Assembly (NCBI GenBank): GCA_002700365.1
Contig: PADB01000010.1
Coordinates: forward strand, 137,277 to 174,080
From: Kordiimonas sp.
GTDB lineage: Bacteria > Pseudomonadota > Alphaproteobacteria > Sphingomonadales > Emcibacteraceae
Direction of reading: 5' to 3'
Length of the DNA: 36,804 nucleotides
Shown: positions 10,342 to 17,148 of the stretch, one piece after another
Layout: each line of letters begins with the position of its first letter
Numbering within the stretch: position 1 is the first letter of the stretch
Notes under the pieces: generated by a model
Told to the model about the DNA's origin: nothing
Seen by the model: the letters and a program-made list of their open reading frames with translations, nothing else
Databases searched by the model: none
Made by a program: the position numbers and the translations under genes

Positions 10342-10787
10342 TGCATACCCCCCGTCACCTTGATATCAGACATTAACCACGCCTGACGTTCATACGGACC
10401 GATATCTTCATCAGTAAAAGAAGGGGCCGTCTGCACTTTTGTTTTTGGCCGCAATCTTGGCAGTGGGGCCTTAAATTCGTCAACAACGCCACCGCGGGGA
10501 CTGCCCGGCGCGCGCATTCCTAACTCATTAACAGCAGCCACAATTTGCCCCCCCTCCATGGAAGACAACGTCAGAAAACGTGCCGATAACCGCGTCAAAC
10601 GCGCTGGACGTGATAGATACGCCAATTCTGCCTTCAACACTTTTATGGCATTTTGATCGTCAATTATTTGGCGGGCCAATTGCTGATGGCGACGTTCCAG
10701 CAGCTCTGTAGAATTTTTGACCCGATAGACAAAAACCCCCGCAACAATGGCAAACACAACCAGCAAAGACACCATAAATCGCGTCAT
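10338..10787 (-). CDS. ftsL: Cell division protein FtsL-like
   Basis: This is a small bitopic membrane protein of 149 residues. A single N-terminal helix (LLVVFAIVAGVFVY, residues 8-21) is followed by a periplasmic coiled coil (residues 25-60) with ELAYLSRPARLTRLSARFL, the pattern typical of alphaproteobacterial FtsL. The C-terminal 70 residues are proline- and arginine-rich and poorly conserved. FtsL joins FtsB and FtsQ in the divisome and helps activate FtsWI. Its place between rsmH and ftsI, overlapping both by four bases, is the canonical ftsL position and is strong support, since sequence conservation in the family is low. Confidence 0.88.
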   Translation of the reverse strand: MTRFMVSLLVVFAIVAGVFVYRVKNSTELLERRHQQLARQIIDDQNAIKVLKAELAYLSRPARLTRLSARFLTLSSMEGGQIVAAVNELGMRAPGSPRGGVVDEFKAPLPRLRPKTKVQTAPSFTDEDIGPYERQAWLMSDIKVTGGMQ

Positions 10788-11776
10788 TGTCGCCCCCCCG
10801 CCTTTACAACAACAGGAACCGCCGCTGTTCGACGGGCCGCGCGCAACTTTGCTGAACGGGAACGGGGGTTTTCATTAATTTCCTCAGCACTGGCGACTAC
10901 AGCCTTGCGGGTCATGACCTCAAAGGCCGGATCCTGTTCAGCACCATCCGGCATTGGCATATGCCGCGACGTCGTAACCGCACGCCCTGACTGCTCCAAA
11001 AGGAAACGCTTCACAATACGGTCTTCTAATGAATGAAACGTCACAACAACCAGGCGGCCACCGGGCTTCAATAATGTTAATGAAGATGACAATGCATGCC
11101 GCAATTCGCCCAGCTCATCATTGACATATATACGCAAAGCCTGAAACGTCCTGGTCGCGGGATGAATAGTTTTCTTATGGCGCGGGCCTTCTCCAATAGT
11201 ATTGACAATCAATTTTGCCAACTGACCTGTTGTCGTCAACGCGGCTTCATCACGGGCCTTGACAATAGCCTTCGCAATACGCCGGGATTTTTTTTCTTCA
11301 CCATATAAATAAAGGATGTCTGCCAATGCAGCCTCCTCCATATGATTGACAACATCTGCAGCACTTTGCCCCTGAATACTCATGCGCATATCCAGCGGCC
11401 CGTCTTCTTGAAAAGAAAAACCCCGCATACGCTGATCCAGCTGCATAGATGACACACCAATATCCAGCATGATGCCATCCACCTGTGCCACACCACAGCC
11501 AGATAATAAGTCAGCCATTTCAGAAAACCGCCCTTCTAGAAGGCGAAACCTATCACCGTAAGACTGCTTCAATGCCGCAGCATAAGGAGCAACAGTCGGG
11601 TCACGGTCTATCCCATAAACTTGACAGGGCACTGCATCCAGCACCGCACGACTATACCCCCCCGCTCCAAAGGTTCCATCCACATAAACTTCGCCCTCAG
11701 CAGGAGCGAGGGCGTCTAGAACGTCATCCAGCAGGACGGAATAATGCGGCACAGGGGGCAACGTCTCCGCCATCAT
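10784..11776 (-). CDS. rsmH: 16S rRNA (cytosine(1402)-N(4))-methyltransferase
   Basis: RsmH (MraW) is an S-adenosylmethionine methyltransferase that N4-methylates C1402 of 16S rRNA in the decoding centre. The 330-residue protein has the N-terminal HYSVLLDDVLDAL motif, the SAM-binding VDGTFGAGGYSRAVL, LDIGVSSMQLD followed by RGFSFQEDGPLDMRM, and the C-terminal VVVTFHSLEDRIVKRF. The first of two adjacent ATG codons overlaps the mraZ stop by four bases, and the end overlaps ftsL by four bases. Position after mraZ is the standard dcw order. Confidence 0.97.
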   Translation of the reverse strand: MMAETLPPVPHYSVLLDDVLDALAPAEGEVYVDGTFGAGGYSRAVLDAVPCQVYGIDRDPTVAPYAAALKQSYGDRFRLLEGRFSEMADLLSGCGVAQVDGIMLDIGVSSMQLDQRMRGFSFQEDGPLDMRMSIQGQSAADVVNHMEEAALADILYLYGEEKKSRRIAKAIVKARDEAALTTTGQLAKLIVNTIGEGPRHKKTIHPATRTFQALRIYVNDELGELRHALSSSLTLLKPGGRLVVVTFHSLEDRIVKRFLLEQSGRAVTTSRHMPMPDGAEQDPAFEVMTRKAVVASAEEINENPRSRSAKLRAARRTAAVPVVVKAGGRQ

Positions 11777-12255
11777 GACGATCCCCCCTCACCCTCAGGT
11801 CGTTCAGACCGCTTCAGATGTAAGCTATCACGGCGCGTACGCGCCACTTCCCGCACAGAAGAAATGTGGTCCGCAAAAGCTTCTGGCTCCCATATCTGGA
11901 ACGTCTTTCCACGACCTACAAATGTGGCCCGGTCCACAATTCCTGCGTGAGATAACAAGGCATCTGGTATCAATACCCGCCCTTCGGAATCAAAAGAAAG
12001 CTGAACCGATCCCGCAAGTATGGTCGTGGCAAAGGCTTCATGCTCATCGGTGTAGGGGGCAAATTCATCAATACTTTCACTGAGCCGCTCCATATAGCTC
12101 AGATCACAGCCCTCAATAGCGGGATGAACAAAAGAATTATAACACACAATCCCCGGCCAGCCCTGCGACGCCAAAGCCGCACGAAAAGGCGCAGGTACGG
12201 AAACTCGCCCTTTCTTATCGACCTTGTTGGTAAATGTGGACAAAAATAATGGCAT
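11773..12255 (-). CDS. mraZ: Transcriptional regulator MraZ
   Basis: MraZ is an AbrB-fold DNA-binding protein, first gene of the dcw operon, and in E. coli it represses its own operon. The 160-residue protein contains the two expected half-repeats: NKVDKKGRVSVPAPFRAAL near residues 9-27 and LSFDSEGRVLIPDALLSHAG in the second half. Each contributes a swapped-hairpin barrel with a GRV core. Family members form ring-shaped oligomers that bind TGGG-type direct repeats at 10-bp spacing. Exactly such repeats occur upstream of this gene at 12322-12509, so autoregulation is likely. Confidence 0.96.
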   Translation of the reverse strand: MPLFLSTFTNKVDKKGRVSVPAPFRAALASQGWPGIVCYNSFVHPAIEGCDLSYMERLSESIDEFAPYTDEHEAFATTILAGSVQLSFDSEGRVLIPDALLSHAGIVDRATFVGRGKTFQIWEPEAFADHISSVREVARTRRDSLHLKRSERPEGEGGSS

Positions 12256-12321
12256 TCTGCCAGCCCCGCGCTCATTTCCCTGCTATTCGCTTCCCGCACC
12301 CGTCACAGGATCACTTTAATA

Positions 12322-12356
12322 TGGGATATCATGGGATGTTATGGTCGTCAATGGGA
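12322..12356 (+). promoter_or_regulatory. MraZ box cluster 1 (four repeats)
   Basis: TGGGA occurs at 12322-12326, 12332-12336 and 12352-12356, with a degenerate TGGTC at 12342-12346. The four are in exact 10-bp register, each preceded by A and separated by five bases. This is the architecture described for MraZ operators (TGGGN with 5-bp spacers). The cluster lies 67-101 bases upstream of the mraZ ATG, with the repeats reading away from mraZ. A TTGACG at 12347-12352 on the mraZ sense strand falls inside it and could be a -35 element, but its -10 partner is poor. Confidence 0.8.
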
Positions 12357-12376
12357 CCAGATGTTAAAATACGGGG

Positions 12377-12392
12377 GTTAACAAGGTATTAA
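12377..12392 (-). promoter_or_regulatory. Candidate CtrA binding site
   Basis: On the mraZ sense strand the sequence reads TTAATACCTTGTTAAC, which fits the CtrA consensus TTAA-N7-TTAAC exactly. It lies about 120 bases upstream of the mraZ start, between MraZ clusters 1 and 2. A GAATC site (GANTC, the CcrM methylation target) lies at 12423-12427. CtrA control of division genes is known in Caulobacter, and an RcdA homologue is encoded in this window, which makes the match more plausible. Binding is inference. Confidence 0.5.
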
Positions 12393-12453
12393 TAAGGCAC
12401 CTTTTCTACATAAATACCATATGAATCAATATATTATATTATTCACAATGCCA

Positions 12454-12468
12454 TCCCATAGGATCCCA
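12454..12468 (-). promoter_or_regulatory. MraZ box cluster 2 (two repeats, inverted)
   Basis: On the minus strand the sequence is TGGGATCCTATGGGA: two TGGGA units with a 5-bp spacer, in the opposite orientation to clusters 1 and 3. It is 199-213 bases upstream of mraZ and about 207 bases upstream of the divergent amidotransferase start, flanked by an AT-rich stretch at 12405-12447. Confidence 0.65.
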
Positions 12469-12494
12469 TAATTCTCAGATTATTTTTACGAATA

Positions 12495-12509
12495 TGGGAT
12501 TTTATGGGA
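12495..12509 (+). promoter_or_regulatory. MraZ box cluster 3 (two repeats)
   Basis: TGGGATTTTATGGGA on the plus strand gives two TGGGA units at 10-bp spacing. It is closer to the divergent amidotransferase gene (166 bases before its ATG) than to mraZ. A further single TGGGA lies at 12631-12635. The placement suggests the amidotransferase promoter may also be under MraZ control. Confidence 0.6.
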
Positions 12510-12674
12510 GCCGTCCGCCCCCATCACAAGAACATAAACAGAACTTAAGCTATCTCCTCCCCAATCTTTCAGGAGATGCCCCACGGAGTCGCTCACCTCG
12601 TCACAGGATGACTGGATGTGATGAAATATATGGGATATCTTCACCTGCATACCCTCATCAACGCAGGAGCCTCT

Positions 12675-13385
12675 ATGCGCGTACATGCCCTCTATCATGT
12701 CCCATTTGAAGGACTGGCGAATATCAGCAACTGGCTCGACCAACGCGCCGCGGTCTTTACTGAGACATATACCTATGAGGAAGGTGCTTCATTTCCACCT
12801 GCTGAAGATATCGACCTGCTCATCGTTATGGGCGGGCCGATGGGGGTTTATGACCATGACAAACACCCGTGGCTCGTGACAGAGAAATCCTTTATTAAAA
12901 ATGTCATTTCCGCCGGGAAAAAGGTATTGGGAATTTGTCTGGGTGCGCAACTCATCGCAGATGTTCTGGGCGCAGAAGTGCGCCCTCACCCGCAAAAAGA
13001 AATAGGATGGTTTCCAGTGTACAAAACCTCCGATGCGCAACGCAGGGCTCATCATTCGGAACTGGTCTCTATCTTACCTGATGAATTTATGGCTTTTCAC
13101 TGGCATGGCGACCGCTTCGCCATTCCCAAAGGTGCCACACATCTCTTTACCAGCGATATTTGTGCCCCCCAGGGCTTCTTATTTAATGACAACGTATTGG
13201 GCCTACAATTCCATCTAGAAACAACCCCCGACAGCCTTCAGGCGCTCATCGAACACTGTGGGAAGGAATTAACAGATGCCCCCTCTATCCAACTTGCCCC
13301 GGTTATGCTGGATAATATTGCCCTATGCCAACCAGCCAATAGGCTTATGGCAAAAATATTAGATAAACTAATGGGGATAGAGTGA
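12675..13385 (+). CDS. Class I glutamine amidotransferase (GMP synthase-like)
   Basis: This 236-residue stand-alone class I glutamine amidotransferase has Cys88 in the nucleophile elbow GICLGAQL and the His180/Glu182 pair in LQFHLETTPD, completing a Cys-His-Glu triad. The oxyanion strand reads VMGGPMGVYD, and FHWHGDRF is typical of the GMP-synthase-like subgroup. The real acceptor is unknown; related proteins hydrolyse glutamine or gamma-glutamyl compounds. The frame extends upstream to 12618, but I start at the ATG at 12675 because CAGGAG lies six bases before it and the residues added upstream do not look conserved. It is divergent from mraZ and shares its box-rich intergenic region. Confidence 0.88.
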   Translation: MRVHALYHVPFEGLANISNWLDQRAAVFTETYTYEEGASFPPAEDIDLLIVMGGPMGVYDHDKHPWLVTEKSFIKNVISAGKKVLGICLGAQLIADVLGAEVRPHPQKEIGWFPVYKTSDAQRRAHHSELVSILPDEFMAFHWHGDRFAIPKGATHLFTSDICAPQGFLFNDNVLGLQFHLETTPDSLQALIEHCGKELTDAPSIQLAPVMLDNIALCQPANRLMAKILDKLMGIE

Positions 13386-15888: not shown

Positions 15889-17148
15889 ATGAACCGCCCA
15901 CAAAGGTATCTGACCCGGATTTTTCTGTTTCTCACTGCTGTCATCATCGTATGCGGGGCACTGTTTTCACCCATCGAAGCAGCCTTTATTGCCAACCCTG
16001 CCTTAAACGGGCTGATTGCGGCAACATTGATCATAGGGGTGTTTATTGTTATCCGGCAAATCATGCAACTTTCTTCCGCCCGGCAATGGCTTGACTGCTT
16101 AAAAGAAGATATTCGTCACAATATCGCAGATGACCAACCCATGGACGCGCCTCCCACGTTACTTTCACCTCTTTCAGCCCTGACCACAGAAAGTGATAAT
16201 GGCCCTTCGCTATCCAAAACATCATTATCCACACTGTCCATGAGAACTATCCTGGACGGCGTAGGCGCCCGACTGGATGAAAGTCGTGAATTAAGCCGCT
16301 ATCTTATTGGGTTACTTATTTTCCTGGGCCTACTGGGTACATTCTGGGGACTATTGGGGACAATCGGCTCCATTAAAGACACTATAGATAGCCTGAATGT
16401 TGGCGGGGCTGACATTACCTTGATGTTTGAAGATTTGAAAGAAGGACTCGCAGCACCACTTGGTGGGATGGGCACGGCTTTTAGCTCCTCCCTATTCGGT
16501 CTTGCCGGATCAGTCATTCTCGGCTTTGTGGACCTTCAGGCGGGGCAAGCACAAAATCGCTTCTATAATGACCTGGAAGACTGGCTATCCTCTGTAACCA
16601 AGTTTTCCGCAGCGTCCATGGCCGTAGAAGGCGGCACAGGATCTACCCCTGCCTTTGTTGGTGCGTTGTTGGAACAGTCCGCCGATAGCATGGACCGCCT
16701 GCAAAGATCGTTCTCCCATGCCGAAGACGGACGTGCAGAAATCACCTCGGCATTGGTCACACTTGCAACTCATTTCGAAGCCGTGGCAGACCAACAGAAA
16801 AACCAAAATGCCTTATTGGAAAAAATCTTAAAATCCCAATTAGACAGCCGCAACTTGCTGCGCGATCAAATAGATTCCCAACAGAACGCTACAAACAGTA
16901 GCGACCGAAATGACGCCAGCCTTACGCACCTGCGTAACATGGATGTACAATTAAAACAGCTCAATGCAGAGATCACCAAATCGCGGCAACAATTAGGTGA
17001 AGAACTACGTAGTGAATTGCGTCTGCTCAGCCGCAGCCTCGGCACAGCTCTGGACCAAATGGCGGAAAAAAAGTCCCAAAGACAAACGACCAACATCAAA
17101 AGCGACCCCACCAGTGAGTTAGTCGCACGAAGAGAAGATAAATCCTGA
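15889..17148 (+). CDS. MotA/TolQ/ExbB proton channel family protein
   Basis: This 419-residue inner-membrane protein has two helices near residues 10-57, a third at about 139-160 (LIGLLIFLGLLGTFWGLLGT) and a fourth at about 193-215 (GMGTAFSSSLFGLAGSVILG). The last two match the pore helices of ExbB, TolQ and MotA, including the small and Thr residues of the GLLGT motif. A long cytoplasmic tail (residues 220-419) is predicted to be helical and coiled-coil. Its neighbour, two bases downstream, is the matching MotB-like protein, so the two probably form an ion-driven complex that pulls on peptidoglycan. No flagellar gene is nearby, so I do not call it motA. GGAG precedes the ATG. Confidence 0.85.
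   Translation: MNRPQRYLTRIFLFLTAVIIVCGALFSPIEAAFIANPALNGLIAATLIIGVFIVIRQIMQLSSARQWLDCLKEDIRHNIADDQPMDAPPTLLSPLSALTTESDNGPSLSKTSLSTLSMRTILDGVGARLDESRELSRYLIGLLIFLGLLGTFWGLLGTIGSIKDTIDSLNVGGADITLMFEDLKEGLAAPLGGMGTAFSSSLFGLAGSVILGFVDLQAGQAQNRFYNDLEDWLSSVTKFSAASMAVEGGTGSTPAFVGALLEQSADSMDRLQRSFSHAEDGRAEITSALVTLATHFEAVADQQKNQNALLEKILKSQLDSRNLLRDQIDSQQNATNSSDRNDASLTHLRNMDVQLKQLNAEITKSRQQLGEELRSELRLLSRSLGTALDQMAEKKSQRQTTNIKSDPTSELVARREDKS

Follow-up and report, generated by a model that had tools for sequence, protein, structure and literature searches.

A candidate auxiliary MraZ operator at a kept distance from the mraZ promoter in Kordiimonas sp. and its relatives

In Kordiimonas sp., the interval between mraZ and a divergent glutamine amidotransferase gene contains short TGGGA boxes in three clusters. 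One of these lies at the predicted mraZ promoter, which raises the question of what the other two, situated farther toward the neighbouring gene, might be for. We have analysed this locus within a window of 36,804 nucleotides, by which we mean the whole stretch of DNA studied, and compared it with the mraZ upstream regions of related genomes, referred to below by family (f), genus (g) and locus (L) numbers.

The boxes and the predicted mraZ operator

MraZ is a very widespread bacterial regulator that forms rings. The gene considered here (11773-12255, minus strand) encodes a protein of 160 amino acids with the two MraZ (AbrB-like) domains typical of the family, as Pfam PF02381 matches in two stretches, with 58.2 bits where the cut-off is 23. 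It precedes rsmH/mraW (10784-11776, minus strand; Pfam PF01795), which its end overlaps by 4 bp; this order, checked on rsmH, is the one expected at the head of a dcw cluster. Solved structures among the sequence relatives of MraZ include 1n0e and 9qlg.

The seven TGGGA units in three clusters, at exact 10-bp steps, that were listed in a preliminary description of this DNA are all present in the sequence. Cluster 1 has exact units on the plus strand at 12322, 12332 and 12352, with TGGTC at 12342 filling the gap; cluster 2 has two on the minus strand, at 12454 and 12464, and cluster 3 two on the plus strand, at 12495 and 12505. Outside the range of that description, 45 bp before the amidotransferase start codon, lies a lone eighth box (12630-12635, plus strand), which shares the sequence ATGGGA with the other seven and may be a chance occurrence. 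By itself, TGGGA shows no enrichment over the whole window, which has 64 matches with 85.7 expected. What stands out in the interval is the 10-bp pairing of these boxes: the 2.40-Mb genome contains only five TGGGA-N5-TGGGA pairs, three of them in the interval, compared to a single match for the reversed-pattern control. The looser pattern TGGG-N6-TGGG is near background throughout the genome (79 matches, the reversed control giving 53). Of the 79, 30 were inspected, and 25 of these fall inside open reading frames of at least 100 amino acids; a wider MraZ regulon in this genome was therefore rejected, there being no clear second target. A triple TGGG pattern with up to two mismatches occurs in the window no more often than by chance (6 matches, 5.8 expected), and a search of the interval for RNA elements returned no Rfam match up to an E-value of 1. 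Elsewhere in the window, TGGG-like units at 10-bp steps are also seen at 16325-16368, inside an open reading frame (15889-17148) without a Pfam match.

Cluster 1 (12320-12355, minus strand; CCCATTGACG ACCATAACAT CCCATGATAT CCCATA) reads CCCATTGACGACCATAACATCCCATGATATCCCATA on the mraZ strand, from 12355 to 12320, and comprises four boxes, which agree in 15 of 16 box letters with the direct repeats of TGGGN, one every 10 bp, that mark an MraZ operator upstream of mraZ. It is fused with the promoter of the gene, both elements of which we computed to overlap with boxes. The predicted -35 element TTGACG (12346-12351, minus strand), called from sequence, lies inside the first box and is conserved in most regions of the order; 17 bp away, the predicted -10 element TATCCC (12323-12328, minus strand), called from sequence and conservation and directly preceded by TGA, overlaps the fourth. 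A strict sigma-70 scan found no promoter in the interval and missed even that of mraZ itself, and is therefore uninformative. The preliminary description had taken the clusters for MraZ boxes, which is indeed what they look like, and we consider cluster 1 to be a predicted MraZ operator covering the predicted -35 and -10 elements of mraZ. The start site predicted from these elements would lie about 60 nt before the start codon. A leader of this estimated length fits those given in an excerpt of PMC5089854, where up to 70 nt are typical outside the Rhodobacteraceae.

Of 385 genomes from the class, 167 match the cluster 1 pattern with up to three mismatches, and one matches its reversed control; class-wide these are pattern matches, placement before mraZ having been seen within the order. 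In four loci of family f6, genus g29 (L084, L086, L091 and L099), the array before a divergent MraZ mostly consists of CCCT or CCCC units at 10-bp steps, instead of CCCA, and protein and boxes look as if they had changed together.

A distal pair at a kept distance

Cluster 3 (12495-12508, with TGGG on the plus strand; CCCATAAAATCCCA on the mraZ strand) is a predicted distal two-box MraZ site. It has the same orientation as cluster 1 and lies upstream of the -35 box, at a distance of 153 bp. In the sister genus, g5, a distal pair, typically CCCATAAAAACCCA, is found 152-154 bp from the -35 box in all 13 genomes; ten of these pairs are exact, two have one mismatch and one has two, imperfect pairs having been sought at 136-170 bp only. 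With the window added to these genomes of family f1, genus g5, all 14 carry a further site with the motif of the main array at 152-154 bp, and two f5g31 genomes carry the pair at 154 bp. Within the 13 g5 genomes, the spacing between pair and -35 box has a standard deviation of 0.63 bp. Between the stop codon of the upstream gene and the pair there are 81 to 122 bp (standard deviation 14.7), and the leader between array and ATG measures 55 to 82 bp (standard deviation 5.4), most leaders being nearly equal too (69-72 nt in 11 of 13). The sequence that separates pair and array has a mean identity of 0.606 over the 14 genomes, versus 0.577 for shuffled copies, and between the window and g5 the identity is 0.54; their MraZ proteins are 46-51% identical. 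Alignments of the true intervening sequences need 10.6 gap columns and those of shuffled copies 21.2, indicating that some sequence kinship remains. The distance of cluster 3 from the promoter is kept, while the DNA in between has diverged.

Cluster 2 (12455-12468, minus strand; TGGGATCCTATGGG on the mraZ strand), a predicted two-box MraZ site in inverted orientation, is 113 bp away from the -35 box. In the family, no exact counterpart was found at this position. Inverted boxes occur at 134, 124 (TGGT) and 114 bp in L013 (f1g2), and further inverted clusters start at 136 bp in L064 (f5g31) and at 126 bp in L050 (f4g8).

For a count across the order, we took the mraZ upstream regions of all genomes outside f6 in which mraZ was found, 75 with the window, and dropped L016, which has only 15 bp of upstream sequence. 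In each of the remaining 74 regions, TGGG-N6-TGGG was sought in either orientation over 300 bp, starting 25 bp upstream of the main array. Such distal pairs occur in 33 of the 74 regions, representing 11 of 27 genera, compared to 1.17 on average, and never more than 7, in 200 shuffles. When the spacer was varied from 0 to 24, N6 gave these 33 regions, N16 gave 7 and all others 0-4; other parts of the same loci have pairs in 7 of 616 cases. Words with permuted letters, at the N6 spacing, were found in 0-5 of the 74 regions, with the exception of GGGA at 17, a count that we attribute to the TGGGA boxes themselves, read with an offset of one base. By genus or family, exact pairs are present in f1g1 (1/1), f1g5 (10/13), f2g6 (1/1), f4 (4/4), f5g9 (11/17), f5g15 (1/1), f5g24 (2/2), f5g31 (2/2) and f7g17 (1/1). 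None was found in f1g3 (0/14), f1g2 (0/1), f1g4 (0/1) or the other genera outside f6. In f6, where mraZ is divergent and its starts are poorly placed, one of the 16 sampled regions has a pair.

Outside the order, we used 110 of the 166 other genomes of the class that match the cluster 1 pattern (30 returned loci plus 80 picked manually, for the most part a single one from each genus) and dropped L175 and L176, which are short. Eight of the resulting 108 regions have a pair, with 1.4 in shuffles, and two of these eight are almost joined to the main array. The main array is hence found widely across the class, and the distal pair mainly in this order. The preliminary description had set its proposal against the case that relatives keep cluster 1 but not clusters 2 and 3, and here the outcome is divided: cluster 1 is widespread and cluster 3 is kept in g5, but the g2, g3 and g4 genomes of the family (1, 14 and 1) have no exact pair, and cluster 2 is without an exact counterpart.

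Two further observations concern the distribution of pairs. That distal boxes might compensate for weak main arrays was considered and rejected, as no relation was seen over 21 genera (Spearman 0.17, p 0.47) or between 29 regions with a pair and 37 without (p 1.0). In f5g9 and f5g24 loci such as L026, L028, L008 and L070, TGGG pairs in inverted orientation are seen 214-216 bp from the -35 box, a few bases before an apparent terminator of the upstream gene, and may serve a different purpose.

Helical phase, nearby elements and other readings

For sense pairs, taken as one value per genus from eight genera of three families, the distances range from 134 to 177 bp and are concentrated at one helical phase for a repeat of 10.5 bp (R 0.76, p about 0.006), 10.5 also being the best period between 8 and 13. 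Merging related values, or fitting the period freely, raises p to 0.015-0.06. The one-per-genus values omit further pairs at 152 (f5g9), 185 (f5g15) and 195 bp (f5g31), and L016, L039, L041, L044, L046, L061, L062 and L080 were dropped for want of a clear -35 box; two of these, L041 and L044, do have pairs, yet stand outside the phase test for this reason. The phase does not repeat in the four values for sense pairs outside the order. Inverted pairs have no 10.5-bp phase (p 0.6) and give p 0.01 at a period of 10.0.

Between main array and distal pair there is a CtrA-type box, TTAA-N7-TTAA (12378-12392, minus strand), whose start is 37 bp from the -35 box on the upstream side. Of 71 regions from the order, 35 have a box with N7 spacing 20-80 bp before the -35 box, and in 33 of these the distance is again exactly 37 bp; TTAA spacers of 3-6 and 8-12 give 0 to 6 regions. 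The box at 37 bp is present in all 14 f1g3 regions, in 11 of 13 of f1g5, in f1g1, f1g2 and f1g4, and in three of the four f4 regions; elsewhere in the class, beyond the order, 9 of 108 have an N7 box at 20-80 bp. Judged by its sequence, the mraZ promoter thus has the fixed TTAA-N7-TTAA box of a CtrA-regulated promoter. Together with the operator and the gene order, this box points to the Alphaproteobacteria as the class concerned.

A second recurrent element is GANTC, the CcrM methylation site. Often as CCGA(G/T)TC, it is found in 13 of 14 f1g3 and 11 of 13 f1g5 regions at 200-204 bp from the -35 box, some 48 bp upstream of the pair, and may contribute to the fixed length of the mraZ upstream region. 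It is conceivable that mraZ has another promoter farther upstream, possibly controlled by GANTC methylation, with the distal pair as its operator; MraZ bound to the pair would then block this promoter without looping. The placement of GANTC in f1 speaks for such an arrangement. The window and f5g31, however, have no GANTC at this place, yet keep the pair at 153-154 bp; no promoter was recognised at the pair of the window, by a strict scan that also missed mraZ's own; and the fixed distance to the main promoter would be left unexplained. We therefore regard a second promoter as unlikely, although among the alternatives it fares best. The g3 regions also bear on a length set by looping: they have no exact pair, yet GANTC at a fixed place, so something besides MraZ may fix this length.

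The preliminary description had further proposed that MraZ also controls the amidotransferase gene (12675-13385, plus strand; Pfam PF00117; ATG after CAGGAG), for which clusters 2 and 3 would be the operators. Both clusters do lie between the two genes, cluster 3 ending 166 bp before the amidotransferase ATG, and the lone eighth box is closer still, 45 bp from the start. The relatives, however, argue against this proposal. Amidotransferase matches exist in 38 of 60 genomes, the window's own included, leaving 22 without a match, and in the 59 relatives no match is situated close to mraZ; among genomes with mraZ, the best matches (those of f4) are on other contigs, some of these genomes being fragmented drafts. 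In g5, cluster 3 is at the same distance from mraZ with another gene beside it. The upstream gene in g5 and g3 is mostly small and co-oriented, and in those tested, four from the 13 genomes of g5 and two from g3, it encodes a PilZ-domain protein; L034 and L035 have a longer gene at this position, and four f4 and two f5g31 loci have rnpB, the gene for RNase P RNA. Upstream neighbours thus differ while the distance of the pair stays, next to PilZ genes in g5 and to rnpB in f5g31, and the distal pair is therefore independent of the amidotransferase neighbour. Moreover, four of five loci with amidotransferase relatives have no TGGG-N6-TGGG pair, and the fifth, L134, has two GC-rich ones. The divergent amidotransferase gene is probably a chance neighbour; its control by MraZ finds no support, and it is quite improbable that clusters 2 and 3 are its operators.

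Least probable of all is that the distal boxes are functionless relics of an MraZ array that was formerly longer: across genera, the sense boxes do lie roughly on one lattice, and g3 has no exact pair, but exact pairs survive in 10 of 13 g5 genomes amid DNA of nearly shuffled identity, and pairs occur in 11 of 27 genera of the order while being rare outside it.

A possible looping repressor

We consider it probable that clusters 2 and 3 form an auxiliary MraZ operator beside the main operator on the mraZ promoter. MraZ bound to cluster 1 would shut out RNA polymerase and so repress its own dcw operon, and the auxiliary site would be provided by cluster 3 together with its inverted neighbour, cluster 2. 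An octameric toroid is mentioned for MraZ in PMC7761207. Such a ring would have more DNA-binding subunits than one array needs and could therefore hold both sites, closing a loop of about 150 bp around the CtrA-type box; we infer that this loop would tighten autorepression and oppose CtrA. On this model, MraZ would, in one order of the class, be a looping repressor whose ring bridges a four-box operator and a two-box operator some 15 helical turns upstream, with the CtrA site enclosed, and autorepression and CtrA would compete through the shape of the DNA. We advance the full model tentatively, as a serious possibility that falls somewhat short of an even chance. Bending or looping of this region by MraZ had been suggested in the preliminary description, and the idea now gains backing from the distance constraint across species and, more weakly, from the helical phase.

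The lac and gal repressors, which loop DNA, combine a main operator on the promoter with a helically phased distant operator. The layout found here is alike, whereas the protein and its box arrays are unrelated, and looping by MraZ is our inference. Among MraZ systems, that of E. coli represses itself through boxes upstream of mraZ, according to Eraso et al. 2014 as cited in PMC8475190 and PMC7761207. In the E. coli K-12 sequence, TGGG units at 10-bp steps are found on the sense strand next to the mraZ start codon, and an excerpt of PMC7761207 places them downstream of the -10 element. The 10-bp steps are common to both organisms; in Kordiimonas sp., however, the boxes are inverted, overlap the predicted -35 and -10 elements and have distant partners. 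In B. cenocepacia, according to PMC7761207, MraZ binds in gel shifts to a fragment with four repeats at 10-bp steps, as they are seen here, and a fragment from -250 to -1 is bound while one from -386 to -136 is not, so that there is no distal site in that species. The Mollicute MraZ has AAAGTG direct repeats in the mraZ promoter as its main target (excerpt of PMC8475190); direct repeats in the promoter are thus shared, but the boxes differ in sequence, and the excerpt describes no distal cluster. A literature search, with most subscription papers outside its coverage, returned no report of MraZ looping or of distal MraZ sites.

A natural two-site operator at a kept distance offers a direct test of looping, and if MraZ does loop DNA, its ring has a use. 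The start of the cell-division operon would then be tied to CtrA within a few hundred base pairs.
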